Origin: Phycisphaerales bacterium
GTDB lineage: Bacteria; Planctomycetota; Phycisphaerae; Phycisphaerales; SM1A02
NCBI GenBank assembly: GCA_022447205.1
Contig: JAKVBQ010000018.1
Coordinates: forward strand, 1-57,291
Length of the DNA: 57,291 nt
Direction of reading: 5' to 3'
Positions 28,660 through 44,830 of this stretch are shown here, piece after piece. A model generated the notes under the pieces. That model saw only the letters and a list, made by a program, of their open reading frames with translations. It was not told the origin of the DNA and ran no database searches. The first letter of the stretch is position 1. Every line of letters begins with the position of its first letter. The position numbers and the translations under genes were made by a program.

Positions 28660-29717
28660 GATTCGATACCGTCCTGCCTGACCGGAGTGGTCGGGGCGAC
28701 CGCCTGATTCAAGCCGAGGAACTCCTCGGCGGTACCGGCGAGCATTCGCTTCTTCTGTTCCGGGCTGAGATCGTTCATCGAGCGGATGAGTTCGCCGGGT
28801 TTGCTTTCGCCAAGCGGGAACGGGTAGTCCGATCCCATCGCGATCCGCTCGGCACCATGAAGTCCCACGAGGTAGCGGAGGGCTTCCGGGTCATGAACGA
28901 GGGAGTCGATGTAGAACCGGTCGAGATAGGTACTGGGTGCGCGATCGATCTTCTTGGCGCAGAGATCGGGGCGGACTTCGAATCCGTGATCCATCCTTCC
29001 CAGAGCGAAGGGGAAGCTGCCGCCTCCGTGTGCGAAACCGATCCGAAGGTCGGGGAGCTTGTCGAAGACTCCGCCGAAGATCATCGAACTGATCGCGATC
29101 GCCGTCTCGGTGGGCATCCCGACGAGCCAGGGCAGCCAGTATTCGGGCATCCGGTCACGACCCAGCATGTCCCAGGGATGGACGAAGACGCATGCCCCGA
29201 GTTCCTGTGCGGCCTCGAGCACCTCGACGATGGACGGATCATCGAGGTTCTTCTCTCCGACGTGGGTGCCGATCTCGATGCCGGCAAGTCCGAGTTCGCC
29301 GGTCAGGCGCTCAAGTTCCCTGATCGCACGTTTCGGCTCCTGGAGCGGGACCGTTCCGAGCCCCTGGAAACGTGTCGGCCACTCACGGACGACCTCCGCG
29401 ATGTGATCGTTGAGGATGCGGGAGAGGTCGAGCGTGTCATCCGGTTTCGCCCAGTAGTTGAACATGACCGGAACCGTCGAGAGAACCTGCATGTGGACAC
29501 CCGTGGCGTCGCAGTCGGCGAGCCTGACCTGCGGGTCCCAGCAGTTCGACTGGATCTCCCTGAAGAAGGCACCATCGATGTGCATGCGTGCACAGCAGGG
29601 CTTGTGGTGTTCGAGTTGCAGCCAGCCACCGTACCCGTACCGTTCCTTCAGGTCCGGCCAGTTCTCCGGAAGGATGTGCGTGTGCAGGTCGATGTGGTTT
29701 GGATGATCGTCCATCAT
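28656..29717 (-). CDS. 2-amino-3-carboxymuconate-6-semialdehyde decarboxylase (ACMSD)
   Basis: Amidohydrolase-fold decarboxylase of about 353 residues. ACMSD turns aminocarboxymuconate semialdehyde into aminomuconate semialdehyde, diverting carbon from quinolinate/NAD synthesis to catabolism. Metal ligands are visible as HTH in DLHTHILPENW, the His in VFVHPWDMLGRDRMPEYW and the Asp in MGSDYPFPLGE. MHIDGAFFREIQSNCWDP and VLSTVPVMFNYWA match the family. The start is ATG 29717 or 29714, eleven bases after the HAO stop. It overlaps kynU by four bases. Confidence 0.94.
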   Translation of the reverse strand: MMDDHPNHIDLHTHILPENWPDLKERYGYGGWLQLEHHKPCCARMHIDGAFFREIQSNCWDPQVRLADCDATGVHMQVLSTVPVMFNYWAKPDDTLDLSRILNDHIAEVVREWPTRFQGLGTVPLQEPKRAIRELERLTGELGLAGIEIGTHVGEKNLDDPSIVEVLEAAQELGACVFVHPWDMLGRDRMPEYWLPWLVGMPTETAIAISSMIFGGVFDKLPDLRIGFAHGGGSFPFALGRMDHGFEVRPDLCAKKIDRAPSTYLDRFYIDSLVHDPEALRYLVGLHGAERIAMGSDYPFPLGESKPGELIRSMNDLSPEQKKRMLAGTAEEFLGLNQAVAPTTPVRQDGIES

Positions 29718-29728
29718 GAACCTGCCAT

Positions 29729-30349
29729 TCAGGACTTGAGTTCGTCGGGCATGACATACGGCCCCGGACGTTCGACGCGGTTGCCGCATTTTCCGCAGGT
29801 CGACCGTTCCGGGTCCTCCCAGAACGATTCCATCGCGGCCTTGAATGCATGGACGATGTCCTTGCAGTCGAACTCGTTGTCATGAACGAGTGCGTTGCAC
29901 TTCTCGCAGTAGAAGATCTGGTGCTCGAGTTCGCCTTCCGGTCTTCTTCGCTCGACGACCATGCCAAGGGTCCCTTCCGGACGGCAGGGGGCATGCGGTA
30001 CGTTGGGTGGAATGAAGAAGGTCTCACCCTCTCGGACGACATGATCGACGATCCGGTCTTCCTCGTAGGTCTTGACCACGATGTCGCCGACCAGCTGGAT
30101 GAAGAACTCCTCGGAATCGGTCTTGTGAAAGTCGTTGCGTGCGTTCGGCCCCGCGATCACCATCACGAAGAAATCCCTGCCGCTGTAGAGGTACTTGTTC
30201 CCGACCGGCGGCTTGAAGGCACCCCTGTTCTCCGAAACCCACTTCATCAGGTGGATGGGAGAGCTCACGGAACCGTCTGCTTCGATACCGCACGGTTCGT
30301 CAGGCGTGTCTGGGTTGACGATCGAAGCCTGGGAATCGCTTCTGGACAT
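29729..30349 (-). CDS. 3-hydroxyanthranilate 3,4-dioxygenase
   Basis: Cupin dioxygenase of 206 residues, opening the ring of 3-hydroxyanthranilate (HAO, NbaC type). The iron ligands lie in NARNDFHKTDSEEFFIQL and in PPNVPHAPCRPEG. The C-terminal CEKC and CGKC pairs form the rubredoxin-like iron site found in bacterial HAO. ATG 30349 is preceded by GGAG at a spacing of eight bases. The further upstream ATG 30397 overlaps the -10 box and is rejected. This is the first gene of the kynurenine unit. Confidence 0.94.
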   Translation of the reverse strand: MSRSDSQASIVNPDTPDEPCGIEADGSVSSPIHLMKWVSENRGAFKPPVGNKYLYSGRDFFVMVIAGPNARNDFHKTDSEEFFIQLVGDIVVKTYEEDRIVDHVVREGETFFIPPNVPHAPCRPEGTLGMVVERRRPEGELEHQIFYCEKCNALVHDNEFDCKDIVHAFKAAMESFWEDPERSTCGKCGNRVERPGPYVMPDELKS

Positions 30350-30395
30350 TCGAAGTTCTCCTGCCTGCTGCTCGGGTCCGGCCTCTGGTTCGTTC

Positions 30396-30401
30396 ATTCT
30401 A
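30396..30401 (-). promoter_or_regulatory. -10 box of the kynurenine unit
   Basis: TAGAAT on the minus strand (30401-30396), inside TGTGTAGAAT. Initiation about seven bases downstream would give a leader of about 40 bases ending with GGAG before ATG 30349. No clear -35 hexamer is visible. Confidence 0.55.
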
Positions 30402-30423
30402 CACATCCGAACATGCATGGTCC

Positions 30424-30448
30424 TGATGTGTCCCAGTGACACCACATC
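30424..30448. promoter_or_regulatory. Imperfect palindrome between divergent units
   Basis: GATGTGTC, CCAGT, GACAC, C, ACATC: two half sites facing each other with one extra base. It lies between the kynurenine -10 box and the TACACT box (30455-30460) of the lipoprotein gene, so a bound regulator could affect both. It is a candidate operator only. Confidence 0.35.
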
Positions 30449-30466
30449 TGTCGTTACACTGCCTTC

Positions 30467-31012
30467 ATGCCCGTTCCTGCACGATTCCTGCTGTTTTTGG
30501 CATGGCTGGTCCTTTCCGGCTGCCAGATGTTCGATCGTGGTGAGGGCTTCGATGGCTCCGGTACCGTCAGTGGCGGCATGGCGACCGTGAAGGTGCGGAT
30601 CCACGGCATCGCGAAACCACGCGGCACGCTCAACGTCGGTTTGTACTCCAGCTCCGAGACCTGGCTGACGACCGAGTACAGCCACTCGAAGAACGGTCGT
30701 GTCGGCAAGGTCGGCGAGGTGATCGAGATCGTCCTCGAGGACGTTCCATCGGGTGCGTATGCGGTGAGCCTCTTCCAGGATCTGGACGACACCAGCTCGC
30801 TCAGCCGCAATGCATTCGGCATACCCACCGATCCCTGGGGCATGTCGAACGATGCGGTCGGCACGCTTGGTCCGGCCTCCTTCGAGGCGGCAGTGGTGAA
30901 GATCGAACCCCCGGAAACGGTTCTCGATGTGCGGTTGAGGACCGGTCTGGGCATTCTGTCGGACGTGCCGGATCTCGTTGAGGAGGCTGGCGAGGAATCA
31001 GGGGGAGACTGA
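30467..31012 (+). CDS. DUF2141-family lipoprotein
   Basis: A 181-residue protein with a lipoprotein signal (ARFLLFLAWLV, lipobox LSGC). The mature part is a DUF2141 beta-sandwich: KVRIHGIAKPRGTLNVGLYS, EIVLEDVPSGAYAVSLFQD and ALG-type end replaced by NAFGIPTDPWGMSND. The function of DUF2141 is unknown. TACACT (30455-30460) is six bases before ATG, with no Shine-Dalgarno site. The 3' end overlaps the convergent gene by 15 bases. Confidence 0.85.
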   Translation: MPVPARFLLFLAWLVLSGCQMFDRGEGFDGSGTVSGGMATVKVRIHGIAKPRGTLNVGLYSSSETWLTTEYSHSKNGRVGKVGEVIEIVLEDVPSGAYAVSLFQDLDDTSSLSRNAFGIPTDPWGMSNDAVGTLGPASFEAAVVKIEPPETVLDVRLRTGLGILSDVPDLVEEAGEESGGD

Positions 31013-31522
31013 TTCCTCGTTCATTCTGTCCTGCCGCTCCAGAGGTGGGTAGGGAAGTCCGCTCGAATCCATCGCGATCTCCAGCTCCTCCCGACATGCC
31101 TGGATCATCTCGAGCCTTCGCAGGATCGATTCACTCGAGGAGAATTCGGTACGGACTCGCCGACCACTCTCGGATTCCACCTGACTGTGCAGCTCGCGAC
31201 GAACCGTGTCGGGAATCCTGCCATCGCGTTCGCAGAGGATCTCGATCGCGAGGTTCTCGATCGCCCGGTAGGTCAGGGTCTCTTCGGACTGTTGTTCGAG
31301 CTCCTCGAGGAGCTGGCGGATGCGCTCTCGCCTCTGGTCGGACGTCGTTCGCATCATGGCCAGCTGGACTTCCCGTGCTCTCAGCTTCTTGTTGAGGTCG
31401 GGCAGGGTGCCGATCTCCTTCAGCTGACGTCGGAGCAGGAACGTGGCGATGCCGAAGGCGATCGCTGCGCCCGCCATGGCCGCTCCGATTCCCAGCAGTA
31501 GTCCAGTCGAGATCTCGATCAT
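30998..31522 (-). CDS. Membrane-anchored coiled-coil protein of unknown function
   Basis: A 174-residue protein. One N-terminal membrane helix (GLLLGIGAAMAGAAIAFGIATFLL) is followed by a charged region with heptad-like Leu spacing (LKEIGTLPDLNKKLRAREVQ; RIRQLLEELEQQSEETL). I do not recognise the family; a scaffolding role would be a guess. A GATAAT box with a short leader containing AAGGA lies upstream near 31560. It is divergent from the MutL operon. Confidence 0.72.
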   Translation of the reverse strand: MIEISTGLLLGIGAAMAGAAIAFGIATFLLRRQLKEIGTLPDLNKKLRAREVQLAMMRTTSDQRRERIRQLLEELEQQSEETLTYRAIENLAIEILCERDGRIPDTVRRELHSQVESESGRRVRTEFSSSESILRRLEMIQACREELEIAMDSSGLPYPPLERQDRMNEESVSP

Positions 31523-31666
31523 GTCAGCGCTTTTCGCATCCTTGAGAGCCCCTGAGGGGGATTATCACACTCTATGAAGATGGAATTCCGGACACCAGCC
31601 CCGAGTCGGGATTCCTCAATCCGGCATTCTTCCTGCTGACAATCGCCATGAGCTCGCCACAGCCCA

Positions 31667-31672
31667 TACCTT
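31667..31672 (+). promoter_or_regulatory. -10 box of the nine-gene MutL operon
   Basis: TACCTT (31667-31672) is seven bases before ATG 31680, the pattern seen at other leaderless starts here. No other promoter is evident before 40798, where the genes end. Confidence 0.5.
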
Positions 31673-31679
31673 GGCGGCC

Positions 31680-32141
31680 ATGGATCAAGCGACATCGGAC
31701 AGCCCTGAGACGATCGACTGGGTCGTATCGCCCGCGCGGGAGAAACCGGCCCTTGCCTGCTTCGTGGCGGGGGTATTGGTCCTGATCGGCTACCTCGTCT
31801 CCCTCTTCGCCGAGGACTGGATCTGGGGTGCGCTGGCCGTGGTCTTTTTGCTTGCCACCGTGAGCCGGTTCTACCTGCCAAGCCGTATCCAGGTATCTCA
31901 AACAGGTGTTCGTGCCGAGTTCCCCCTTCGGACTCGGGAGGCACCCTGGGATGAGATCGAGTGGGTGCGCCATGACGCGGTCGGCGCATTGATCCGAACC
32001 CGGACCAACAGGCTGTTCCAGAGCGCTGAATTCACCATTCTCTTCGGGCGTGCCGGGCATCGAGTGATCGAAGGGCTCAAGGCGTTCGCTCCCGAGGGCG
32101 TGGTTCAATATCGTGGTGGGGACAAGGAGCCCTCACCGTGA
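31680..32141 (+). CDS. Two-helix membrane protein with bPH-like domain, first gene of the MutL operon
   Basis: A 153-residue protein. Two membrane helices (ACFVAGVLVLIGYLVSLF and WGALAVVFLLATVSRFYL, about 30-70) are followed by a cytoplasmic beta-rich domain (IQVSQTGVRAEFPLRTREAP; IEWVRHDAVGALIRT). The arrangement resembles bacterial PH-domain membrane proteins, but I am not sure. The next gene overlaps it by four bases (GTGA), so it is translationally tied to the operon. TTG 31671 is an upstream alternative start. Confidence 0.75.
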   Translation: MDQATSDSPETIDWVVSPAREKPALACFVAGVLVLIGYLVSLFAEDWIWGALAVVFLLATVSRFYLPSRIQVSQTGVRAEFPLRTREAPWDEIEWVRHDAVGALIRTRTNRLFQSAEFTILFGRAGHRVIEGLKAFAPEGVVQYRGGDKEPSP

Positions 32142-32560
32142 AGAAAAGCCTCTCAGAACGTTTCAGGCATGCTTTTGCCTTTGAGAAACAAGAGGACTTC
32201 ACGCCCGATGAGCGGGATCAGGAGCTGATCGAGGTGGTCTGCAAGGCCGTCGTCGAGCGGGGCATGGCGACCCCGGCAACCCTGTTCCTCGAGTCCACGC
32301 GTCCGCTCAACTACATCGGCAGCCAGGCGATGGTCTTCTTCGAGCCGGTGGTCCGTGCCGTCCTGAGGCATCCCGAGGCGTGGGAACGATTTTCACGCAT
32401 TCTGGAGCATCGGGGAGCGATCGAGTACCTTTGCCGACGCATCGAGGCGCTCGATGATGAGCGCCGGAAACCGGCATCACCTTCGAAGACCGACTCGGCG
32501 GATCCTTCTGCCGAAGAGGCCGAGGCAACTGCGAGATCGACACCACCTGATGAGCAGTGA
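32138..32560 (+). CDS. Small soluble protein of unknown function in the MutL operon
   Basis: A 140-residue protein, helical by composition. The core reads DQELIEVVCKAVVERGMATP, FLESTRPLNYIGSQAMVFFE and a C-terminal acidic, Ser/Pro-rich tail. FLESxRPLNYIGSQAMVFFEP looks like a conserved motif; similar small proteins occur in planctomycetes, but I know no function. It overlaps both neighbours (4 and 11 bases), so its product is probably made in step with the MutL-like ATPase. Confidence 0.78.
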   Translation: MKKSLSERFRHAFAFEKQEDFTPDERDQELIEVVCKAVVERGMATPATLFLESTRPLNYIGSQAMVFFEPVVRAVLRHPEAWERFSRILEHRGAIEYLCRRIEALDDERRKPASPSKTDSADPSAEEAEATARSTPPDEQ

Positions 32561-34406
32561 ATCCACCTTCAACCCCGCCGATGTCAAGGTCATCCTGGCC
32601 ACCGACTGCGGTTCGACCACGACCAAGGCGATCATGATCGAGCAGGTCGATGGCGTCTATCGGCAGACCTGGCGTGGAGAGGCCCCGACGACCGTCGAGG
32701 AGCCGTTTGCTGACGTCACGGTCGGTGTCATCAACTCGCTGACCGAGATCCAGGAGGTCTCCGGACGGCGGCTCCTGGACGACCAGGGCCGCATCATCCG
32801 CCCCGCGACCGCCGACGAGGGCTGCGACATCTACATCTCGACGAGTTCCGCGGGCGGTGGGCTCCAGATGATGGTTGCCGGCGTGGTCCGCGAGATGACC
32901 GCAGCGAGTGCGAAACGTGCGGCACTCGGTGCGGGCGCGATCGTGATGGACACCATCGCGTCCAACGACAAGCGTCGCCCGCACGAACAGATCCAGCGGA
33001 TTCGTGAACTGCGCCCCGACATGGTCCTGATCTCCGGGGGCACCGATGGTGGTGACACCAAGAAGGTGACCGAGATCGCCGAGCTGATCGCTCCGGCGAA
33101 GCCGAGGCCTCGTTTCGGCAAGGCCTACGAGCTGCCGATCATCTTCGCGGGCAACGAGAAGGCCCAGCCCGAGATGAATCGTGTCTTCGGTGATGGCGGC
33201 TTCGACCTCAAGATCACCGACAACCTCCGTCCGAGCCTCGAGCAGGAGAATCTCGGCCCCGCCCGCGACATGATCCATGACGTGTTCCTCGAGCACGTGA
33301 TGGCGCATGCCCCTGGCTACGACAAGCTGATGTCGATCACCGATGCCCCGATCATGCCGACGCCCGGTGCGGTCGGCGACATCCTGCAGACGATCGCGAA
33401 GGGCAGGGGAATCAACGCGGTCGGCGTCGACATCGGCGGTGCGACGACGGACGTCTTCAGCGTTTTCGACGGCACCTTCAATCGAACGGTGAGCGCCAAC
33501 CTCGGGATGAGCTACTCGATCTCGAACGTCTGTGCGGAAGCGACCCTGCCGACCATCCTGCGCTGGGTGCACATCGACATGGACGAGCGCGAGCTTCGGA
33601 ACCGCGTCAAGAACAAGATGATCCGTCCGACGACCATCCCGCAGACCCTCGAGGCCCTGGTGTTCGAGCAGGCGGTCGCACGCGAGGCGCTTCGACTCGC
33701 CTACAAGCAGCACAAGGAATTCGCGACGACACTCAAGGGTGTGCAGCAGCAGCGTACGGTCGGCGACACCTTCAGCCAGCAGAGTGGCGGCGAGACGATC
33801 GTCGACAACATGAAGCTCGACCTCCTGGTCGCTTCGGGCGGCGTGCTCAGCCACGCTCCAAGGATGCACCAGACCGCGATGCTCCTGATCGACGCCTTCG
33901 AACCCGAAGGCGTGACCGAGCTGGCCAAGGACTCGATCTTCATGATGCCTCACCTCGGCGTCCTCGCGTCCGTGCACGAGCAGGCCGCCATGGAGGTCTT
34001 CGAGCGTGACTGCCTCGTCTACCTCGGCACCTGTGTTGCGGCGAAGGGCGCCGGAAAGCCCGGCAAGTCCTGCTTCAGCTGGTCCCTCGACGGCGGATCC
34101 CGTGGTTCCGGCGAACTTCAGTTCGGGGATCTGGAACATGTCGAGCTCGGCCCGGATGAGAGCGCAGAGATCGAGATCCGACCCGCCCGCGGGTTCGATG
34201 TCGGTGCAGGTCCCGGCAAGGTCCTGAAGCGAACCGTTCGTGGAGGCACCGTCGGACTGATCCTCGATGCGCGGGGACGTCCGCTCGCGCTGCCCGAAGA
34301 GCGCCAGGCGTGTCGGAGCGCGATGCAGAAGGTGATCGACCAGATCGGGCTGTATCCCGCAGCCGAGTCGACTCCGGTCACCCAGGAATCGGGGAGTTCA
34401 GACTGA
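32550..34406 (+). CDS. Orphan MutL-like ASKHA-fold ATPase (glutamate mutase L family)
   Basis: A 618-residue protein of the glutamate mutase MutL family, not the mismatch-repair MutL. The fold is ASKHA (actin/Hsp70/hexokinase): phosphate-1 loop LATDCGSTTTKAIMIE (about 12-27), YISTSSAGGGLQMMV, VLISGGTDGGD, a second phosphate loop VGVDIGGATTDVFS and LLVASGGVLSHAP. In clostridia MutL lies beside glutamate or ornithine/lysine aminomutase genes, and its role is unclear. No mutase subunit or B12 gene is present here. Instead the neighbours are membrane proteins, so it may power or assemble an envelope complex. Its stop overlaps the next start by one base. Confidence 0.9.
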   Translation: MSSESTFNPADVKVILATDCGSTTTKAIMIEQVDGVYRQTWRGEAPTTVEEPFADVTVGVINSLTEIQEVSGRRLLDDQGRIIRPATADEGCDIYISTSSAGGGLQMMVAGVVREMTAASAKRAALGAGAIVMDTIASNDKRRPHEQIQRIRELRPDMVLISGGTDGGDTKKVTEIAELIAPAKPRPRFGKAYELPIIFAGNEKAQPEMNRVFGDGGFDLKITDNLRPSLEQENLGPARDMIHDVFLEHVMAHAPGYDKLMSITDAPIMPTPGAVGDILQTIAKGRGINAVGVDIGGATTDVFSVFDGTFNRTVSANLGMSYSISNVCAEATLPTILRWVHIDMDERELRNRVKNKMIRPTTIPQTLEALVFEQAVAREALRLAYKQHKEFATTLKGVQQQRTVGDTFSQQSGGETIVDNMKLDLLVASGGVLSHAPRMHQTAMLLIDAFEPEGVTELAKDSIFMMPHLGVLASVHEQAAMEVFERDCLVYLGTCVAAKGAGKPGKSCFSWSLDGGSRGSGELQFGDLEHVELGPDESAEIEIRPARGFDVGAGPGKVLKRTVRGGTVGLILDARGRPLALPEERQACRSAMQKVIDQIGLYPAAESTPVTQESGSSD

Positions 34407-35533
34407 TGGCCAAGGCATACACCCCGGGACTCAAGGTCTCCGCATCGACCGAACACGAAGCGCATCGCATCCTCCCGATCCAGGGTGAGGTCAAGGTTGC
34501 CGAAGGCGATCTCGTCGATGCCGACACGATCGTCGCCGAGACCTTCATGGATGGTGATGTCACCCCGCTCAACGTCGCGAACCTGCTCTCGGCCCAGCCC
34601 GGCGAGGTGCCGGGGCTGATGCTGAAGCAGGAGGGAGATTCGGTCGAGAAGGACGAGCCGATCGCACGGAGCAAGGGGATCTTCGGGATGTTCAAGAACG
34701 AGTGCAAGGCACCGGCGAGCGGGACCTTGCAGGCGATCTCCAAGACGACCGGACAGGTGATGATCGCCGGGCCGATGATCCCAGTTCAGGTGAAGGCCTA
34801 CCTCCCCGGGCGCGTCGACTCCGTGCTGCCCGGTGAAGGCGTGGTGGTCAAGAACACCGTCACCCTGATCCAGGGGATCTTCGGGGTCGGTGGCGAGACC
34901 TCCGGTCGGATCGTCATCGCGACCTCCAGCCACGACGAGGAGCTCCGTGCCGAACTGATCACCGAAGAGATGTCCGGGGCCATCATCATCGGTGGCGGCC
35001 GGATGACCGCCGAAGCGATCCAGAAGGCCCGTGAGGTCGGGGCTTCCGCGATCGTGTCCGGCGGGCTCGATGATTCCGACCTCAAGCAGATTCTCGGCTA
35101 CGACCTCGGGGTCGCCATCACTGGAACCGAGAAGCTCGGCGTGACGGTCGTCGTCACCGAGGGCTTCGGCGAGATCGGCATGGCGCGTCGGACCTACGAG
35201 CTGCTGAGTGCTCGAGCGGGCCGGCAGGCTTCCGTCAACGGAGCCACTCAGATCCGTGCGGGCGTGATGCGACCGGAGATCCTGATTCCCGTCGAGGATG
35301 GGTCGGACTTCGACGGGGATGCAATTGAGACCGAATCAGGTGTCCTGGAACTCGGAACGCCGATCAGGATCATTCGGGATCCGTTTTTCGGAATGATCGG
35401 GACGGTCGCGGCGCTGCCCGAAGCGCCACAGGTCCTCGGATCTGGTTCGAAGTCCCGTGTCCTCGATGTTGCACTCGAATCCGGAGATACGGTTACCGTA
35501 CCTCGGGCAAACGTGGAACTGATCGAGACCTGA
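34406..35533 (+). CDS. Barrel-sandwich/KOW-domain protein of the MutL operon
   Basis: A 375-residue soluble protein. Two barrel-sandwich-like segments are visible (RILPIQGEVKVAEGDLV with VPGLMLKQEGDSV; CKAPASGTLQAIS with VQVKAYLPGRVDSVLPGEGV), resembling biotinyl-lipoyl hybrids but without an MKM lysine motif. A central alpha/beta part (SGAIIIGGGRMTAEAIQKAR; ASAIVSGGLDD) follows. The C-terminus is a KOW-like beta domain (GTPIRIIRDPFFGMIGTVAA). It starts on the last base of the MutL-like gene. Function is unknown; the MutL-like ATPase is its likely partner. Confidence 0.83.
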   Translation: MAKAYTPGLKVSASTEHEAHRILPIQGEVKVAEGDLVDADTIVAETFMDGDVTPLNVANLLSAQPGEVPGLMLKQEGDSVEKDEPIARSKGIFGMFKNECKAPASGTLQAISKTTGQVMIAGPMIPVQVKAYLPGRVDSVLPGEGVVVKNTVTLIQGIFGVGGETSGRIVIATSSHDEELRAELITEEMSGAIIIGGGRMTAEAIQKAREVGASAIVSGGLDDSDLKQILGYDLGVAITGTEKLGVTVVVTEGFGEIGMARRTYELLSARAGRQASVNGATQIRAGVMRPEILIPVEDGSDFDGDAIETESGVLELGTPIRIIRDPFFGMIGTVAALPEAPQVLGSGSKSRVLDVALESGDTVTVPRANVELIET

Positions 35534-35564
35534 CCCTTCCTGTGGTCTCGACAAGGATTCAGAC

Positions 35565-36947
35565 ATGAACAGAGCCGGTCAACGCATAGCTCTTGCCCTC
35601 AATGCCCTGCTGCTCGCCGGTCTCACCGGGGTTGCGGCGGCATCGAGCCCGCTCACGGGAGCACCTCCCGCACCTCCATCCGGCGTGAGTGCCGAGGACA
35701 AGCCCTGGGATGGTGGCGGCACCGTCCTCCTGCGCTGGGAGGCGTCCTCCACCGAGGAGATCAAGGGCTATGAAGTCTTCGCGCACCAGGAGGTGTCCGG
35801 GTCGGTCGCCGCGGCCGAGGCCGAACAGTCTGCGAAGGACGAGGCCGAGGCGCAGACCGAGGCGATTCTCGAAGGCGAAGGCGTCGCTCCCGAGGATGCC
35901 GAGCAGCAGGCCGGGGAACGTGCGGCACGGGACGTCGCCCCTGTCACTGACGTTCCGAAGTGGAACTCCCTGGGTGTCGTTCCACCGGACCAGCTGGAGT
36001 TCATCGCGAGCGGTCTCGACAAGAGCACGCCGTATCGATTCATGGTTCGTGCCATCGGTTCCGACGGAGAGGCCTCGGCCGATTCCAACGTCACCCCGGC
36101 ACTCGTCCCGTACGCACAATGGTTCGATGGCGCCAAGCTGCCCCTCTTCTGCATCCTGTTCGTGATCTGCGGAGCCGTCTTCCTCTACGTCATGCTCGCT
36201 CGTTCCGGCATGCCGATGAAGATCCGCACCATCGCTGGCCTGAAGGCGGTCGATGAGGCGGTCGGCCGTGCGACCGAGATGGGCCGTTCGATCCTCTACA
36301 TCAACGGCATCCAGGACATGGATGACCTGCAGACCGTGGCCGGCGTGACCGTTCTCGGTCATGTCGCGAAGACGGCCGCCGAATACGACGCGAAGATCGA
36401 GGTTCCGACCAGTCGGTCACTCGTGATGACCGCGGCACGCGAGGCGGTCCAGTCCTCCTACTACACGGCCGGACGTCCTGATGCCTACAACCCCGACCTG
36501 ATCTACTACGTGACCGACGAGCAGTTCGGTTTCGTCGCCTACGTGTCAGGCATGATGACCCGCGAGAAGCCCGCAGCCTGTTTCTACATGGGCGCGTTCT
36601 TCGCGGAGAGTCTCATCCTCGCCGAGACCGGCAACTCCGTCGGTGCGATTCAGATCGCCGGAACCGCGCAGCCGAGCCAGCTGCCGTTCTTCGTCGCCGC
36701 CTGCGACTACACGCTGATCGGCGAGGAGTTCTTCGCGGCGAGCGCCTATCTCTCCGGCCAGCCCGACCAGCTCGGCAGCCTCAAGGGACAGGACGTCGGC
36801 AAGATCATCGTCGGTGTCTTCATCATCATTGGTGTCGGACTGGCCACCGTCCAGGCCGCCACTGCAGGCATGCCTTCGATGGAGTCGCTCCATGAAGGCG
36901 CGACGTCCGCGGTCGATTTTCTCGTGAACACGATTCTGGGAAGTTGA
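35565..36947 (+). CDS. DUF6754-type membrane protein with N-terminal FN3-like domain
   Basis: A 460-residue protein. A signal peptide or helix (ALNALLLAGLTGVAAAS) leads to an extracytoplasmic fibronectin-III-like domain (GGTVLLRWEASSTEEIKGYE; STPYRFMVRAIGSDGEAS) interrupted by an Ala/Glu-rich insert of about 45 residues. A membrane helix follows (LPLFCILFVICGAVFLYVML, about 190-210). The C-terminal half (DEAVGRATEMGRSILYINGI; RPDAYNPDLIYYVTDEQFGF; FYMGAFFAESLILAET) matches my memory of DUF6754, a planctomycete/chloroflexi family of unknown role. A final helix is near 425. Confidence 0.82.
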   Translation: MNRAGQRIALALNALLLAGLTGVAAASSPLTGAPPAPPSGVSAEDKPWDGGGTVLLRWEASSTEEIKGYEVFAHQEVSGSVAAAEAEQSAKDEAEAQTEAILEGEGVAPEDAEQQAGERAARDVAPVTDVPKWNSLGVVPPDQLEFIASGLDKSTPYRFMVRAIGSDGEASADSNVTPALVPYAQWFDGAKLPLFCILFVICGAVFLYVMLARSGMPMKIRTIAGLKAVDEAVGRATEMGRSILYINGIQDMDDLQTVAGVTVLGHVAKTAAEYDAKIEVPTSRSLVMTAAREAVQSSYYTAGRPDAYNPDLIYYVTDEQFGFVAYVSGMMTREKPAACFYMGAFFAESLILAETGNSVGAIQIAGTAQPSQLPFFVAACDYTLIGEEFFAASAYLSGQPDQLGSLKGQDVGKIIVGVFIIIGVGLATVQAATAGMPSMESLHEGATSAVDFLVNTILGS

Positions 36948-36959
36948 GGAAGGATCTCG

Positions 36960-37667
36960 GTGCAGGTACTCACACGCAGCATTCCACTCCTCATCACCGG
37001 CCTTGCCGGTCTGGTGATGATTCTCTCCGCCTTCTTTCCCTACACCAGTGAATGGGGCAAGGTCGCCGGTCAGTTCTTCAACATCCTCGCGGCGTTCGCG
37101 TTCGTGCTGGGTGGCGGCAACCTGCTCAAGATCCACTTGAAGAAGGTGTCGGACCAGTCGAAGGGCTGGGGCTACTCGGGCGTCATCCTCGTCTGCTTCA
37201 TCGCCACGCTGGTGGTCGGGCTGGGGAAGCTCGGGGTCTATCCGAACCATGACTATCCGAACATCCGGTTCAGCGGTGAGACGCAGAGCTCGGGCGCGTT
37301 CTGGTGGGCGTACGAATACGTCTTCAAGCCGCTGACCGCGACGATGTTCTCCATGCTGGCCTTCTATGTCGCGTCCGCCGCGTTCCGCGCGTTCCGCGCC
37401 AAGAACTTCGAGGCGATCCTCCTGCTCGGGACGGCCTTCATCATCCTGCTCGGTCGTACCTTCGCAGGCGTGCTGGTCACCGGCTGGATCGACCCGCAGG
37501 GACCGTTCGGTGGGCTTCGACTCGAGGAGTTGAGTGTCTACGTGATGCAGGTGTTCAACACCGCAGGAAATCGCGCGATCATGATCGGCATCTCCCTCGG
37601 CATCGCCTCCACCTCGTTGAAGATCCTCCTCGGCATCGACCGCTCCTTCCTCGGATCGGGGGACTGA
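36960..37667 (+). CDS. Six-helix membrane protein of the MutL operon
   Basis: A 235-residue integral membrane protein with about six helices (near 8-28, 38-57, 72-92, 125-145, 150-172 and 203-222). Charged loops include KIHLKKVSDQSKGWGY and YPNHDYPNIRFSGETQSSGAFW. GTG 36960 follows AAGGA by a short spacer. The family is unknown to me. The neighbours suggest it is a subunit of the same membrane complex. Confidence 0.8.
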   Translation: MQVLTRSIPLLITGLAGLVMILSAFFPYTSEWGKVAGQFFNILAAFAFVLGGGNLLKIHLKKVSDQSKGWGYSGVILVCFIATLVVGLGKLGVYPNHDYPNIRFSGETQSSGAFWWAYEYVFKPLTATMFSMLAFYVASAAFRAFRAKNFEAILLLGTAFIILLGRTFAGVLVTGWIDPQGPFGGLRLEELSVYVMQVFNTAGNRAIMIGISLGIASTSLKILLGIDRSFLGSGD

Positions 37668-37671
37668 CACC

Positions 37672-38721
37672 ATGATCACCATGCTTGCCAATCTCGATCG
37701 CCGCTGGATCTTCCTTGCCATGGCCCTCTGCGTGGCGATTCCGATCCTCGTGATCGGCCTGACCGGAAAGACCCTCCCGGAATCACCGACCCCACTTGCG
37801 GAAGCCTTCTTCCACGAGGTCGATGTCGCCGGAGAATCCCAGGGACGTCCCGGCCGGGTCCTCATGGCCTTCGACTTCGACCCTGCCTCGGCTGGTGAAC
37901 TCTCCCCGATGGCGAGCTCGCTGGTGCATCAGTGTGCCGAACGAGGCCAGAAGATGTACTTCGTCTCGCTCTGGCCCGTCGGGCCCCAGATGATCGAGGA
38001 CGCCATCGCGAAGGTCATCAATCGCCACTACCCCGATCTCGTCTACGGGGAGGATTACGTCAATCTCGGTTTCAAGGCCGGGAACGAACAGGTCATCAAG
38101 GTGATGGGGATCGATCTGACCACGGAGTTCCGGACCGACACCAAGGGTACGCCGCTCGATCAGATTCCGATGATGGAAGGTATCACCACCCTGGAGAACT
38201 TCGACCTGATCGCGGAGATCAGTGCGGGCTATCCCGGCACCAAGGAATGGGTCCTCTACGCGGCGACCCAGTTCAACATCCAGATGGTGAGCGGGATGAC
38301 CGGGGTCCAGGCGCCCCTGATGTATCCCTACTACCCGGGACAGCTGGACGGACTGCTCGGCGCGATCAAGGGCGCCGCGGAGTATGAGTCGGTGGTCAAC
38401 GCCTGGGTCCTCCAGAACAAGCTTGCCGAGATCCTCGTCTCGGGGGGCATGGCTGAGGACCAGGCTGATGATGTTTCGGCCGTTCTTGCTTCCGCGCCTT
38501 CCCAGGTCGGGACCTGGACGGAAGGCGCGGACGCCTCGTCGTTGAGCCCCGAGACGAAGGCGGCCCTGATCAACACGGCGGCTGCGCCCATAGCCGGTGA
38601 ATTCCTCGAGGGTCAGCGACGCATGGGCCCGCAGCTCTTCGCACACCTGCTCATGGTCGGCCTGATCATCCTCGGCAACGTGATCTTCTTCGCCCAAAGA
38701 CGACAGGGAGGACGGTCATGA
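37672..38721 (+). CDS. Membrane-anchored alpha/beta protein of the MutL operon
   Basis: A 349-residue protein with one membrane helix near each end (WIFLAMALCVAIPILVIGL, about 13-31; FAHLLMVGLIILGNVIFF, about 322-339). Between them is an alpha/beta domain (GRVLMAFDFDPASAGELSPM; GQKMYFVSLWPVGPQMIEDA; EWVLYAATQFNIQMVSGMTG). Two helices with even parity put the domain on one side, probably outside if the first helix is an N-in anchor. The family is not recognised. It overlaps the next gene by four bases (ATGA). Confidence 0.8.
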   Translation: MITMLANLDRRWIFLAMALCVAIPILVIGLTGKTLPESPTPLAEAFFHEVDVAGESQGRPGRVLMAFDFDPASAGELSPMASSLVHQCAERGQKMYFVSLWPVGPQMIEDAIAKVINRHYPDLVYGEDYVNLGFKAGNEQVIKVMGIDLTTEFRTDTKGTPLDQIPMMEGITTLENFDLIAEISAGYPGTKEWVLYAATQFNIQMVSGMTGVQAPLMYPYYPGQLDGLLGAIKGAAEYESVVNAWVLQNKLAEILVSGGMAEDQADDVSAVLASAPSQVGTWTEGADASSLSPETKAALINTAAAPIAGEFLEGQRRMGPQLFAHLLMVGLIILGNVIFFAQRRQGGRS

Positions 38722-39866
38722 GCGACCAGAATGACAACATGACTGGTTCACAGCGCACGATCTGGGGCGTCATCGTCGTGGCGATCGTCGGTCTGGTCAT
38801 CCTCCGGTCCTTCATCGGGACCGGCATGGGCCGGGTCTACGTCCAGCCCGAGGACCTCGCCTTCGTGCAGCTGGCACCCAGCGTTGACAACGCGACTGAA
38901 TCCGCGACCGATCCCAAGTGGGTCCGGACCGACAGTGAAGAGGGCAAGGCGTACATCGAGGCAAATCCCGATGCGGAGATCATCGGATGGGTCGAATACG
39001 CTCCGGCAGCACCGAGCAGCTACTTCAGGCAACAGGCCAGCCTGGCTTCGAGTGATGGTGGGGGAGCTTCGATCGGCATGAACCCGATCATCATCTCCTG
39101 GCCGCGCACGATCGGACTCTGGGTCGCGGCATTCTTCACCCTCGCCATCTTCTCCTTCCTCTACCGTGACAACCCCTTCTACAAGTTCGCGGAGAGCGTG
39201 GTGGTCGGGGTCTCGGCCGGATACTGGATGGTCGTCGGGTTCTGGGATGTGATCATCCCGAACCTCGTGCAGCGCCTCCTGCCGGTCTTCTCGAAGAGCT
39301 ACTTCACGCCCGGGATGGAACTGCCCGGTGAGTGGTCCGCCTACTGGCCGAATCTGTTCTACATCATCCCGCTGGTGCTCGGCATCATGCTCATTCTTCG
39401 CCTCGTGCCCAAGTGTGGATGGCTGAGTCTCTGGCCGCTCGCCTTCATCGTCGGCACCATGGCGGGGCTCCGCCTGGTCGGATACATCGAGGGTGACTTC
39501 CTCAGTCAGATCAAGGCATCGATCGTTCCCCTCTACGTCGAGGGCACCGACACGACGACCACCTTCAGGACGTACTGGGGCACCTTCTGGGCGAGCCTGT
39601 CGAACATCCTGATCGTGGTGGGGGTCCTTGCGACGCTCGTCTACTTCTTCTTCTCGATCGAACACAAGGGTGTGGTCGGGGGCACGGCGAGGGTCGGCAT
39701 CTGGTACCTGATGATCACCTTCGGTGCAGCGTTCGGCTTCACCGTCATGGGGCGTATCGCGCTGCTTGCCGCACGCGTGGAATTCCTCTTCGACGATTGG
39801 ATGTGGCTGATCGATCCGAACCAGCAGAGGGTGATCCTGGAGGCATCGGTCGGATTGCTGCTTTGA
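38718..39866 (+). CDS. Polytopic membrane protein of the MutL operon
   Basis: A 382-residue protein with about seven membrane helices: one near 15-33, then a soluble loop of about 95 residues, and six or so between 128 and 355. Conserved-looking segments are WPRTIGLWVAAFFTLAIFSF, YRDNPFYKFAESVVVGVSAG and ARVEFLFDDWMWLIDPNQQR. The gene overlaps both neighbours by four bases. No transport or enzyme family is recognisable. Confidence 0.8.
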   Translation: MSDQNDNMTGSQRTIWGVIVVAIVGLVILRSFIGTGMGRVYVQPEDLAFVQLAPSVDNATESATDPKWVRTDSEEGKAYIEANPDAEIIGWVEYAPAAPSSYFRQQASLASSDGGGASIGMNPIIISWPRTIGLWVAAFFTLAIFSFLYRDNPFYKFAESVVVGVSAGYWMVVGFWDVIIPNLVQRLLPVFSKSYFTPGMELPGEWSAYWPNLFYIIPLVLGIMLILRLVPKCGWLSLWPLAFIVGTMAGLRLVGYIEGDFLSQIKASIVPLYVEGTDTTTTFRTYWGTFWASLSNILIVVGVLATLVYFFFSIEHKGVVGGTARVGIWYLMITFGAAFGFTVMGRIALLAARVEFLFDDWMWLIDPNQQRVILEASVGLLL

Positions 39867-40798
39867 CGACCCTCGACAACAGTCGAATCAACACCGCCGT
39901 GCTTCTCTGCGCGGCGGTGTTCGTTTGTGGCTGTGCTCCACGAACGCCGTTTGAGCGCGCCGTGCGTGGGGCGGATGAGGGTTCCTGGGAACTTGCCGCG
40001 CCGGGTCTCCTTGCCCGGCTTGTCGATCCGGATGCGACCGTCGTGATCGAGCCCCTCGGCGAGGTCGACGACATCGGCATGATGACCGCCTACGCGACGC
40101 CTCGTCTTCGAGCGAGCAGGGTGCAGGTCGATCCGTTCCTCCATCCCATCCATGCGGCTCCGGAAGGTGGGACGCGACTCACCCGAAGGGAACTCCTCGA
40201 GGGCGGGCACCTCGAAGGGCTCGAGCTCGCGTGGCTGGACGATGCGCTCGAGGCCTATCTCGTCCAGGTGAACGGCTCCGCCGTGCTCGACTGGGTTGAT
40301 CCCGTCACGAAGGCTTCGACCGGTGAGGCGACCGCGATCGTCTGGAGTCACTCCAACGAACATGCCTACGGCAGCCTCGGACGAATGGCGATCGAGGCGG
40401 GCCTGGCCGATCCTGATGCCATGAGCCTGGATCTCCTGAGGTCACTTCACGCAGCCGACCCGGACGGGATCGGGCTGCTGATGATGCAGAACCCCAGATA
40501 CATCATGTTTCGTGCACTGCCCGAAGGGGAGTCGATCAACGGATCGCGTGGTGTTCCGCTCGTCCCCGGGGTCTCGCTCGCGGCCGATCCATGTCATGAG
40601 ACCGGGGGGATTCTGCTCGTCGAGCCGATCAACGGTTCCCCGCCGCGGATCGGCCTCGTGCATGACGGCGGGGCGGCCATCGTCGGCCCGCAACGCATCG
40701 ACAGCTACCTTGGTGTCGGTCCGGAGGCCATGGATGCCGCAGGTCGGGTCGTGGTTCCGGTCCGTGTGTCTCGGATCCGTTTCAAGGATGTCGACTGA
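39863..40798 (+). CDS. MltA-like lytic transglycosylase lipoprotein, last gene of the MutL operon
   Basis: A 311-residue protein starting at TTG 39863 (TTGA overlap with the previous stop). The N-terminal hydrophobic segment ends VCGC, a weak lipobox. The rest follows the MltA/3D pattern: WLDDALEAYLVQVNGSAVLD, HAYGSLGRMAIEAGL, QNPRYIMFRALPEG, GVPLVPGVSLAADP and VHDGGAAIVGPQRID, whose Asp aligns with the catalytic Asp of E. coli MltA. It would cleave peptidoglycan glycan strands. Coupling to the MutL-like operon ties that system to the cell wall. Confidence 0.8.
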   Translation: MTTLDNSRINTAVLLCAAVFVCGCAPRTPFERAVRGADEGSWELAAPGLLARLVDPDATVVIEPLGEVDDIGMMTAYATPRLRASRVQVDPFLHPIHAAPEGGTRLTRRELLEGGHLEGLELAWLDDALEAYLVQVNGSAVLDWVDPVTKASTGEATAIVWSHSNEHAYGSLGRMAIEAGLADPDAMSLDLLRSLHAADPDGIGLLMMQNPRYIMFRALPEGESINGSRGVPLVPGVSLAADPCHETGGILLVEPINGSPPRIGLVHDGGAAIVGPQRIDSYLGVGPEAMDAAGRVVVPVRVSRIRFKDVD

Positions 40799-40895
40799 AT
40801 CTCCAGCCTTTTCGTGGGACCGAGCGAATCACCCGGAGGCGGTCATACCCTGCCGGTCGTGTTGTCTCGATGACCCGACTTGAAAGGAATGAACG

Positions 40896-41465
40896 ATGAT
40901 TCGATGCCTTGTCGTCCTTGTCCCCTGTCTCCTGTCTGCGAGCCTGTACGCCGGTGGTGGAGCAGGGTGGCATTTCAACCAGCTCGCCGAGGCCGGAACC
41001 TCGGTTGCCGCGGATCATGGCGAGGGCAGCCTCGATCTTGCCGCCTTGAAGGGCATGGCTGCCGCCTATGAGGGGACGAAGCTGAATGCAGATGAGTCGG
41101 ATGCCCCCGGTTCATCCCTTGGTGTTCGTGGCTCTGCAGCGAATGGTGCCTGGTTCGAAGTGAACTCCATGGTCGACGGGCCTGCGGCCTTGAGTTTCGC
41201 CTACCGAGCGAGTGCCACCGGATTCGATGACAACCGAGTGCAGGTCTGGAACGGTACGGAGTGGAACGACCTGGTTCGTTTCGGCCTCGATGGGTCGAAA
41301 GGCAGTCGTGGCTGGGTGCGATTGGTCGTTCCCCTGAGTCCTCAGGAAGGGCCGCTTCGGATCCGGGTGCTTCTGGGCGGGGCGGAAAGCGCCAATGGCA
41401 TCATCCGTTTCGACAATGTCAGGATCGGTCCACCTGAACCGCCGACGGAATCGTCTTCCCGGTGA
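40896..41465 (+). CDS. Small secreted protein of unknown function
   Basis: A 189-residue protein with a signal peptide (MIRCLVVLVPCLLSASLYAGG). The mature part is a predicted beta-sandwich (NGAWFEVNSMVDGPAALSFA; VQVWNGTEWNDLVRFGL; GPLRIRVLLGGAESANGIIR; FDNVRIGPP), of the kind found in carbohydrate-binding or discoidin-like domains. No catalytic motif is visible. AAAGGA before ATG gives a clear ribosome binding site. It is separated from the MutL operon by 97 bases. Confidence 0.78.
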   Translation: MIRCLVVLVPCLLSASLYAGGGAGWHFNQLAEAGTSVAADHGEGSLDLAALKGMAAAYEGTKLNADESDAPGSSLGVRGSAANGAWFEVNSMVDGPAALSFAYRASATGFDDNRVQVWNGTEWNDLVRFGLDGSKGSRGWVRLVVPLSPQEGPLRIRVLLGGAESANGIIRFDNVRIGPPEPPTESSSR

Positions 41466-42715: not shown

Positions 42716-44830
42716 TCAGCAATCGCCCCAGTACCCGAGGACGATGGAGAGATCCTCGCCGTTGGTGGTACCGTCGTCATTGATGTCACCTGCGGCCTGG
42801 CCCCAGTTGCCGAGGACCCAGGCAAGGTCGGAACCATCGACGACGCCGTCGTCATTGGTGTCGGCGATGCAGGGGGTCCCGCAGGTGTCCGCAGCACACG
42901 GGACGCTCTCACCGGCGAAGGTGCCGCCGGCGAGCTTGCAGAGGTCCGAAGCGAGCTGATAGCACTTCCCGGCGATGCAGCAGGCACCGGTCGGTTCAGT
43001 GCAGGGATCGTCCGCACAGGTGCTGTTCGGCCCTTCCCAGGTTCCGCTGACCGCCGCGCAGTCTGACTGCGTCACTTCGCTGCAGAAGCTGTTTGCGCAG
43101 CAGGCTCCGGTGGGATCGGGGTTGTCCGTGAAGCTGATGTCCATGTCGTAGCTGTTCGTGGATCCGCTGTCGAGGAAGACCCTGAGGTACACGCGTCGGA
43201 TCGTGCTTTCGTAGTTCGAGGCCGAGACACGCTCGTCATTGGTGTTCGTGACACCCTCGTCCACCAGGTCGCCGGAGCAGGAGACCATGAAGAGCTGGGC
43301 GTCGATGTCACCGTTGGCATGTGCGAAGTCGAGATCGAAGGTCACGGTCTGTCCGGCGGGCAGGTTCAGACGGTACCAATCCTCGTCATCCGCCTTCACG
43401 ATGAGATCGGGCAGCGAGGTCTGTGACGTCAGGTAGCTCGCCTCGGAACAGGAGTCGTTGTCCTCGTAGAGATCGTCGTCAGGGGTGCCGTTGTTGAGGT
43501 AGTCGTCGAAGTTGCCGACCGAGTAGGCACGTGCGAAACGACCGTAGCCGTCAAGGCCGTTCGTGTTCGAGCAGGAGGAAGCGCCACAGGTCAGGACGCC
43601 CATCAGCTTCTGGTCGCTGTCGCGGTAGGCACCGGATCCAGAGGAGCCGCCTTCGGTGACGCCGTCGTTCCAGCGAACACCGAACCAGTTGGTCGATGAA
43701 CCGCACACCGGGTTCGAGTTCACGTCGCCGTAGCTGATCCGCATGTAGTCGCCTCCGGGGTGATGGAGGCAGGTGACATCGAGGTTGGTGGACGGGGTGT
43801 CGGTGGTCCAACCCACCCAGTACGTGCCACCGGGAACGGAACCGTTGATCCTCAGGAGGGTGCTGTCCGCGCTTCCATACGTGGCGGTCAAGGTGGATCC
43901 GCTGGTCGATGCACCATTGGAATAGGAACCGGTGCAGTTCTGGCGCTCGTAGCGGAAGACGAACTGGGTGCTGGAGGCCTCGCTCTGTGTCGAGATGCAG
44001 TGGTATGCCGTGATGAAGTACGGCTCCTGGTCCTGTGCCGTGGTGGCGATCAGCTGGCCGGAGCAGACGTAGCCGCCGAACAGGATGAGGGCGGTCGCGT
44101 TCCCGACGTCGTTCCATGAGGAGTCGCAGGTTGCATGGTTGTGGCATGCGCCCGAACCACCGGCAAGACCGTCCTTGAAGATCGGCAGGTAACCGTGCAT
44201 GAAGTCGGTGAAGTCGAACGGAAGGCCGGCACCGAATGCCGTGTCCGGTTCGAAGTACTCGATCACCACGCCGGTGACCGGTTCCGTCATCGACTGGATC
44301 CGACCGTCATCCATCGGGCCGTCATCCGTGAAGGGACCCTTGACCGTTTCCGGCATGCCGGATGCGTAGGTTCTCAGCTCCGCACCCTCGGGCATGTCGA
44401 CATTCTGAAGGATGACGCTGGTGTTCTCCGCATCGATTGCATGGATCTCGATCTGCCAGATGCGCCCGCCGGGGACGTCGATCCACTGTCCGTCTGCCTC
44501 CGAGATATCGAGGGGCCGCGGGACTGCGAACCGAAGGGGCTCGCCCTGCTGGAGCAGGAAGTCACCTTCGACGATCAGATCCACGTGGTCGATGGCGGGA
44601 AGGTTGATCCTCGGCGTGGGGATGAAGTCGAACCCGAGGCGATGCGCGATCGGCATCCTGAGGCCGAGGGGCTTCTCCGCACGATCCCGCTCTGGCGCGG
44701 CATAGCCTTCAGCCTCGAAGACCACTGGTCCGTCCAGGGGCGAGGTTTCATGGCCATCGATCGAGGTCAGGTTCAAGGAGACGAGCGCAAGTCCGGTGAG
44801 TGTCGTGGTCAGGGAAAGCATCGATATCAA
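42716..44830 (-). CDS. Secreted lysyl-endopeptidase-like serine protease with dockerin-like tail
   Basis: A 704-residue secreted protein. After a signal peptide (SLTTTLTGLALVSLNL) and a prodomain comes a trypsin-fold protease like Achromobacter protease I. His277 lies in FITAYHCIS, Asp322 in SADSTLLRI and Ser397 in EGGSSGSGA. A pre-peptidase C-terminal (PPC) domain follows (about 480-565; DNDSCSEASYL; DEDWYRLNLPAGQTVTFDLD). Two Cys-rich GACC repeats (about 573-650) and a dockerin-like pair of Ca-binding loops (DTNDDGVVDGSDL; DINDDGTTNGEDL) end with GYWGDC. AAGGA precedes ATG. It is a paralogue of the next upstream gene. Confidence 0.9.
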   Translation of the reverse strand: MISMLSLTTTLTGLALVSLNLTSIDGHETSPLDGPVVFEAEGYAAPERDRAEKPLGLRMPIAHRLGFDFIPTPRINLPAIDHVDLIVEGDFLLQQGEPLRFAVPRPLDISEADGQWIDVPGGRIWQIEIHAIDAENTSVILQNVDMPEGAELRTYASGMPETVKGPFTDDGPMDDGRIQSMTEPVTGVVIEYFEPDTAFGAGLPFDFTDFMHGYLPIFKDGLAGGSGACHNHATCDSSWNDVGNATALILFGGYVCSGQLIATTAQDQEPYFITAYHCISTQSEASSTQFVFRYERQNCTGSYSNGASTSGSTLTATYGSADSTLLRINGSVPGGTYWVGWTTDTPSTNLDVTCLHHPGGDYMRISYGDVNSNPVCGSSTNWFGVRWNDGVTEGGSSGSGAYRDSDQKLMGVLTCGASSCSNTNGLDGYGRFARAYSVGNFDDYLNNGTPDDDLYEDNDSCSEASYLTSQTSLPDLIVKADDEDWYRLNLPAGQTVTFDLDFAHANGDIDAQLFMVSCSGDLVDEGVTNTNDERVSASNYESTIRRVYLRVFLDSGSTNSYDMDISFTDNPDPTGACCANSFCSEVTQSDCAAVSGTWEGPNSTCADDPCTEPTGACCIAGKCYQLASDLCKLAGGTFAGESVPCAADTCGTPCIADTNDDGVVDGSDLAWVLGNWGQAAGDINDDGTTNGEDLSIVLGYWGDC

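Follow-up and report, generated by a model that had tools for sequence, protein, structure and literature searches.

The window, the whole 57,291-nucleotide contig JAKVBQ010000018.1 from the draft genome of a Phycisphaerales bacterium (Planctomycetota; assembly GCA_022447205.1; 3.25 Mb, 95% complete), carries an operon at 31680-40798 whose first eight genes, g1-g2-MutL-g4-g5(DUF6754)-g6-g7-g8, are the conserved unit. This unit links the genome's single match to MutL-like ATPases (g3) and a barrel-sandwich (BSH) protein (g4) to a cassette of four predicted membrane proteins (g5-g8). The existence of the eight-gene system is well supported, as the same set recurs in several phyla. Open reading frame calls place nine genes on the + strand, with five junctions overlapping by 4, 11, 1, 4 and 4 bases and three gaps of 31, 12 and 4 bases, which bears out the layout described in the first-pass annotation made from the sequence alone. 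No Pfam family scored over its cut-off for g1, g2, g4, g6, g7 or g8.

The TACCTT box that the annotation had placed in front of the operon does not serve as promoter evidence. It ends 7 bases upstream of the start codon and is one of eight copies in the window, against 2.75 expected (eight were reached in 2 of 100 shuffles), and no sigma-70-like promoter was found near the operon in 31400-41000.

Recurrence of the gene set across phyla

A DUF6754 alignment search of named genomes returned at least 581 relatives, and the best 80 were kept as named loci. Most relatives are metagenome-assembled, and the phylum labels are those of record titles, some of which may be wrong. By title, DUF6754 relatives occur in Planctomycetota, Zixibacteria, Neomarinimicrobiota, Gemmatimonadota, Latescibacterota, Cloacimonadota, Riflebacteria, Acidobacteriota and Stahlbacteria, as well as in a Caldithrix-type bacterium and a deltaproteobacterium. 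Because contig ends truncate many loci, the gene-set counts are lower bounds. Profiles of the window genes found all of g5-g8 in 72 of the 80 named loci, and MutL, g4 and g5-g8 as separate genes in 32 of them. One of the 80 comes from a cultured strain, Thalassoglobus neptunius KOR42 (L047, NZ_SIHI01000027.1), where g4 and DUF6754 are present; if genome G167 is from this strain, MutL, g6 and g7 are present there as well, and family f28 probably includes cultured Planctomycetaceae.

Closer to the window, the full g1-g8 set was found in 13 of 15 loci of its own family and order; the stretch read of L170 shows no g1, g2 or MutL, and L181 has no g1. DUF6754 is present in 24 of 25 genomes of the family and missing from 11 of 16 other genomes of the order. 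Gene order among the named loci is often kept, without being absolute. In several Zixibacteria-type loci (L063, L077, L081, L092, L093, L095, L111), MutL is oriented away from the cassettes wherever it was seen together with g4, and g2-MutL-g4 lies downstream of g5-g8 in a Riflebacteria locus (L108). The conservation of gene order that the first-pass annotation had proposed to check thus extends across Planctomycetota and into other phyla, and the arrangement is not peculiar to this genome. No further partner conserved across phyla was seen among the neighbours of the loci.

Two modules that co-occur when unlinked

We profile-searched 196 Planctomycetota genomes gene by gene. DUF6754 is present in 48 of them, g7 in exactly those 48, and g6 in all 48 and, as a weak match, in G193. 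MutL scored over its cut-off in 50 genomes, 45 of them shared with DUF6754, and g4 was found in 44, of which 43 are shared. The association of DUF6754 with MutL has a Fisher p of 7e-35, a value that treats the genomes as independent though they are not; at family level, 17 of 20 families with DUF6754 also have MutL.

In many of these genomes the genes are neighbours and so do not count as independent cases of co-occurrence; unlinked cases were found as well. In G022, a single contig of 6.36 Mb, g4 with g5, MutL, g6 and g7 lie near 0.29, 0.79, 3.48 and 3.53 Mb. MutL and g4 are well separated from g5-g8 in several genomes of family f44. The 4.08-Mb contig of G187 has the two groups at 3.08 and 0.14 Mb, a distance that would still be about 1.1 Mb on a circular contig; in G146, another f44 genome, it is about 7 kb. 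Together, these results show that g1-g2-MutL-g4 and g5-g6-g7-g8 are two conserved modules that co-occur across phyla. A chance gene cluster was rejected on the recurring gene order and on this co-occurrence when unlinked.

The MutL-like ATPase and its relation to aminomutase accessories

By family assignment, g3 is an ASKHA ATPase, matching the Pfam MutL domain PF13941 with 427.5 bits against a cut-off of 27. The domain ends near residue 488 of 618, leaving about 130 further residues. Across 31 sequences, comprising the window MutL and 30 aligned relatives with 58-89% identity to it, the motifs DCGSTTTK, DIGGATTD and SGGVLSHA are invariant. The protein falls short of the families that define aminomutase accessories: it scored 163 bits against NCBI TIGR01319 (GlmL family, cut-off 204), 235 against NF040745 (GlmL, cut-off 475) and 211 against NF040744 (Or-4, cut-off 600). 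Two more MutLs of the system type were likewise under the TIGR01319 cut-off (159 and 171 bits). Six aminomutase-type MutLs all exceeded it (272-430), yet were under both equivalog cut-offs.

A tree of selected MutLs, from which the partial sequence of L148 was left out, gave the same division. The 18 chosen system-type rows fell on one side (support 99/99), and seven aminomutase-type rows, which served as outgroup and have long branches among them, fell on another (100/100); three of these seven adjoin glutamate mutase and four were typed by family score. As judged from these sequences, the system MutL is a clade separate from aminomutase-type MutL.

The distribution of glutamate mutase matches this division. 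PF06368 had no match in the window's own genome nor in any of the 48 DUF6754 Planctomycetota genomes. It scored over cut-off in three of the 196 (G009, G036, G070), all of them among the five MutL genomes without DUF6754, and under cut-off in four more, none belonging to the 48. G148, a fourth MutL genome without DUF6754, has GlmL-type MutLs, one of them immediately ahead of a B12-binding-domain protein (L140:358-3540), possibly an aminomutase unrecognised by PF06368. In 41 DUF6754 genomes not titled Planctomycetota, MutL is present in 40 (all except G259), while glutamate mutase is over cut-off in two and under it in two more; both over-cut-off genomes have a second, separate MutL directly beside the mutase. 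The earlier proposal that this MutL is not an aminomutase accessory therefore holds for glutamate mutase, which is absent from most relatives rather than accompanying them; no search was made for ornithine or lysine aminomutases.

That the window MutL is still a B12-enzyme accessory, in the operon by accident, is very improbable. PF13941 is common to GlmL and g3, and the genome has three B12-binding-domain matches, among which a 1192-amino-acid frame could be methionine synthase. Against this stand the missing glutamate mutase and the second MutL beside it where it does occur, the separate clade with scores below the GlmL cut-offs, and the co-occurrence of MutL with g5-g7 even when unlinked. 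For glutamate mutase the accessory reading is largely refuted. None of the operon proteins matches a B12-dependent dehydratase family in Pfam or NCBIfam.

We also considered MutL as an assembly scaffold, an actin-fold anchor like PilM, FtsA or GspL that would organise a complex of bitopic and polytopic proteins at the envelope. ASKHA membership and membrane partners with external domains are consistent with such a role, and MutL paralogues weakly match MreB-like_C, in one case narrowly over the cut-off, and FtsA, below it. For the window MutL itself, Pfam and NCBIfam gave no match to the FtsA family, nor to PilM or GspL with E allowed up to 1, and its catalytic motifs are invariant in the aligned sequences, whereas a scaffold may lose them. 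We regard this alternative as improbable. A sequence search of solved structures with MutL, g4, g5 and g7 gave nothing useful.

The barrel-sandwich protein and its fusion to MutL

Matches of g4 to Pfam Biotin_lipoyl and RnfC_N are sub-threshold only. Over 43 g4 sequences searched at E up to 1, Biotin_lipoyl was matched by 37, RnfC_N by 23 (best 1.4e-6), KOW by 10 and NQRA_N by 9. AlphaFold models were made for g4 and for the DUF6754 part of g5 only, and a family missing from the resulting fold lists may still be related. The g4 model (pLDDT 85.7) is predicted to contain barrel-sandwich, swivelling beta/beta/alpha and SH3/KOW parts. It matched an Spt5 KOW domain (Z 8.0, 51 residues, 1.0 Å; by sequence, too, the best solved-structure match was an Spt5 KOW, at E 0.07) and locally RnfC (Z 7.8) and NqrA (Z 7.3) over 64-66 residues. 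Residues 129-300 resemble swivelling beta/beta/alpha folds, with RraA at Z 8.6 over 129 residues and 3.9 Å. Foldseek returned a single match at E <0.001, to NusG (2.5e-5), with poor overall superposition.

MutL and g4 are a single open frame in three Neomarinimicrobiota loci (L034, L036, L044), with fusion proteins of 1011 and 1014 amino acids and a third cut by a contig end.

A MutL paralogue is likewise fused to a BSH-type protein in L134:7278-9749, L135:8310-10814, L136 and L153:11847-14867, and the same pair, fused or with MutL directly before the other protein, occurs in L138 and L142. No DUF6754 cassette was found in these six stretches, and the paralogous pair is possibly a second MutL-BSH system.

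The membrane cassette

The g5 protein matches PF20539 (DUF6754) with 403.4 bits against a cut-off of 27; its fn3 match is weak (E 9e-4) and under cut-off. In the AlphaFold model of its DUF6754 part (pLDDT 92.4), a predicted Rossmann-like domain lies between transmembrane (TM) helices. Foldseek gave no match at E <0.001 for this model. A second-look aligner gave Sir2 (Z 12.2, 142 residues, 3.5 Å), followed by CODH epsilon (Z 9.8) and transhydrogenase dIII (Z 9.7); sugar epimerases (9.9) and RCK domains (9.7) match about as well as CODH epsilon. The predicted fold is thus like that of Sir2, CODH epsilon and transhydrogenase dIII, which we take to be the DHS-like NAD/FAD-binding fold, but identity is only 9-11% and the DUF6754 domain is held between TM helices. 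Several invariant residues lie just past strands 1, 4, 5 and 6 of the model; we do not read a ligand pocket from them.

From hydropathy and flanking charge, the DUF6754 domain probably faces the cytosol, with the FN3-like and g7 domains outside. The large g7 domain between two TM helices has invariant acidic residues, and both g6 and g8 have invariant charged residues in or around their TM regions, those of g8 being D151, E159, R228, H316, R346 and R353.

In some genomes of family f28, g6 is about 610 amino acids long instead of about 235, apparently by a large inserted stretch (L161:7580-9400, L162:7515-9338, L163:7761-9602). A Pfam scan of the long g6 from L161 found no family.

These features could be read as an ATP-powered transporter, in which g6 and g8 would form the membrane path, g5 would bind a nucleotide-like ligand, g7 and FN3 would capture or release cargo on the outer side, and the permanent motor would be MutL-g4. 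The invariant charged residues of g6 and g8, the acidic residues of g7 and the tight co-conservation of the parts would fit. No subunit in the window scored over cut-off for a transporter family in Pfam or NCBIfam, and that one MutL apparently works with up to three distinct cassettes, as described below, is easier to reconcile with a shared factor than with a fixed motor. We consider a transporter unlikely, while giving it more weight than the scaffold.

A redox complex like Rnf or Nqr, in which the DHS-type Rossmann domain would bind NAD(P) or a flavin and g4 would be an RnfC/NqrA-like docking protein, is suggested by the fold matches of g5 to Sir2, CODH epsilon and transhydrogenase dIII, by the RnfC_N matches among g4 sequences, and by the local likeness of g4 to RnfC and NqrA. 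The similar scores of sugar epimerases and RCK folds count against it. Moreover, g5-g8 had no match to the Rnf/Nqr subunit families (RnfA/D/E/G, NqrB-F) in Pfam or NCBIfam, the invariant residues of the aligned system proteins include neither CxxC nor any other cluster motif, and a redox complex leaves no role for MutL. This reading is quite doubtful, more so than the scaffold.

A proposed servicing machine

The mechanism that we favour, and hold tentatively, is that MutL-g4 may be a cytosolic, ATP-driven motor of a chaperone-like or reactivase-like kind that serves the inner-membrane complex g5-g8; we infer it from the comparisons above and from the cassette counts below. MutL and g4 would together make a cytosolic machine that joins an Hsp70/actin-type ATPase to barrel-sandwich, swivelling and SH3-like domains, and would act as B12-dehydratase reactivases do, with the membrane complex as client. 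This client would turn its DUF6754 Rossmann-like domain toward the cytosol and its FN3-like and g7 domains outward; MutL, by binding and hydrolysing ATP, would dock, remodel, load or reset it. One MutL-g4 could then serve several cassette types. The role that the first-pass annotation suggested, energising or assembling an envelope complex, would be compatible with these observations.

Copy numbers of the two modules bear on this proposal. The g5-g8 genes are a cassette that is often duplicated: 12 loci, nine of them titled Zixibacteria, have three g5 copies. In a quick tree the copies cluster largely by position, with all 12 first copies in one clade and 11 of 12 second and 11 of 12 third copies grouping together (L094 is the exception). 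Ten of the 12 genomes behind these loci have one full-length system-type MutL, and two of the ten also carry a longer, lower-scoring MutL paralogue. G247 and G264 have two complementary MutL fragments, which we took as one split gene.

The proposal of a machine servicing the cassette draws on three points: the fusion of MutL to g4 in three Neomarinimicrobiota loci, with that of a MutL paralogue to a BSH-type protein elsewhere; the apparently single system-type MutL in genomes with three g5 cassettes; and the likeness of the predicted parts to dehydratase reactivases, in which, according to PMC7674605, the alpha subunit joins an Hsp70-like ATPase to a swivelling domain. The gene sets of the 80 loci, the co-occurrence of the parts even when unlinked and the invariance of the ATPase motifs in 31 MutL sequences support the proposal as well.

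Several observations weigh against it. Three of the 48 DUF6754 genomes are without MutL (G034, G045, G100) and five are without g4 (the same three, G086 and G182), all five being drafts in hundreds of contigs; and G135, which is 99% complete, has a system-type MutL with g4 and g2 and is without DUF6754, g6 and g7. The swivelling match of g4 barely exceeds the level reached by unrelated folds, and the Pfam reactivase domain was matched by no operon protein nor by any of the 43 g4 sequences. The ratio of MutL to cassettes takes in only the DUF6754 copies within the loci analysed, and MutL could instead be a stoichiometric motor or scaffold.

Peripheral genes and neighbourhood

The small genes recur too, g1 less widely; the first-pass annotation mentioned neither this nor the MutL-g4 fusions and the duplication of the cassette. 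The g1 protein, with a weak bPH_6 match (E 0.0015, under the Pfam cut-off), was found in 16 of the 80 named DUF6754 loci and in 13 of 15 loci of the window's own family and order. The g2 gene was found in 29 of the 80, and several loci that have MutL apart from g5-g8 have g2 beside it.

The g9 protein matches Pfam MltA (74.1 bits) and 3D (34.7 bits), both over cut-off. Its gene occurs in one of the 15 loci of the family and order (L168, same genus) and in none of the 80 others. A tblastn search of all loci with g9 at E up to 1 returned L168 (E 7e-106) and a chance match in L175 (E 0.42). We therefore rejected a nine-gene system including MltA; g9, found only in the window and L168, is a genus-level passenger outside the conserved system. 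The partners named in the first-pass annotation stand as far as the barrel-sandwich/KOW protein, the DUF6754 protein and three further membrane proteins are concerned, and the MltA-like lipoprotein drops out, being confined to the window and L168 among the loci searched. A role in the cell wall is without support, since MltA is not a conserved partner. The genome holds a second MltA-type gene (G000:C5:30996-31463), which scored 144 bits against 66 for the operon copy.

Table 1. Genes of the operon in the window, with predicted features
Gene	Coordinates	Strand	Length (amino acids)	Features
g1	31680..32141	+	153	Small membrane protein, bacterial-PH-like region
g2	32138..32560	+	140	Small protein, conserved core of ~100 residues
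g3 (MutL)	32550..34406	+	618	MutL-like ASKHA ATPase, apparently own subfamily
g4	34406..35533	+	375	Predicted barrel-sandwich, swivelling beta/beta/alpha and SH3/KOW parts
g5	35565..36947	+	460	FN3-like, TM, predicted Rossmann-like DUF6754 domain, TM
g6	36960..37667	+	235	Multi-TM by hydropathy, invariant arginines
g7	37672..38721	+	349	TM, large (probably periplasmic) domain, TM, by hydropathy
g8	38718..39866	+	382	Multi-TM by hydropathy, invariant charged residues
g9	39863..40798	+		MltA/3D-domain lipoprotein-like (PF03562 + PF06725)

Fatty-acid-synthesis-like genes lie downstream in six to seven planctomycete loci, and a pyruvate-phosphate-dikinase-like gene does so in 11 mainly Zixibacteria loci, these names being read from the sequence; we take both as local synteny. 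In the window, a kynurenine-pathway-like cluster at 26006-30685 on the - strand encodes an FAD monooxygenase, a kynureninase, an amidohydrolase (by position, presumably ACMSD-like) and a 3-hydroxyanthranilate dioxygenase. Two large proteins with trypsin-like peptidase regions are encoded on the - strand at 42716-44830 and 45212-48622; their N-termini look alike by eye, and the peptidase match is under the Pfam cut-off in the former and just over it in the latter.

Comparison with known systems

No description of the system was found in the openly licensed PMC literature searched. Its recognised domains are of known kinds, while their assembly and setting are undescribed in that literature. Evenly balanced in our judgement is the broader proposition that the system represents an unnamed class of bacterial inner-membrane machine, present in several phyla beyond the common model organisms, in which as many as three distinct complexes with DHS-type domains are driven or reset by a single MutL-BSH ATPase that they share.

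That a membrane system of eight genes, its ATPase highly conserved, has as far as we searched neither a name nor an assigned function marks a gap in the cell biology of bacteria. It gives the MutL/GlmL ATPases, which are poorly understood, a second, non-B12 context, and the natural MutL-g4 fusion together with a defined candidate client makes the role of MutL ATPases in general testable. If the broader proposition holds, the aminomutase accessory GlmL would be a single branch within a wider family of ATP-driven motors that service proteins.

Known systems share parts with this one. GlmL/MutL (TIGR01319, NF040745) and Or-4 (NF040744) have the PF13941 ASKHA core in common with g3, which differs from them in its separate clade, its roughly 130 extra residues, its scores below all three cut-offs and its lack of a glutamate mutase partner; unlike GlmL, whose partner is glutamate mutase, g3 is accompanied by g4 and a membrane complex. 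The PilMNOP and GspL inner-membrane platforms combine a member of the actin-fold ATPase family with membrane partners, as here, but the window system is without PilM, GspL or pilus family matches and keeps its catalytic motifs intact. In Rnf and Na+-NQR a barrel-sandwich module (RnfC, NqrA) accompanies a membrane complex of several subunits, as the predicted module of g4 may do here; the present system has no recognised iron-sulphur or flavin subunit, and the remainder of g4 differs. The diol and glycerol dehydratase reactivases offer an analogy of parts, since they combine an Hsp70-like ATPase with a swivelling-type domain, as MutL-g4 may; the proteins belong to different families, the operon has no B12 enzyme, and the putative client is a membrane complex.

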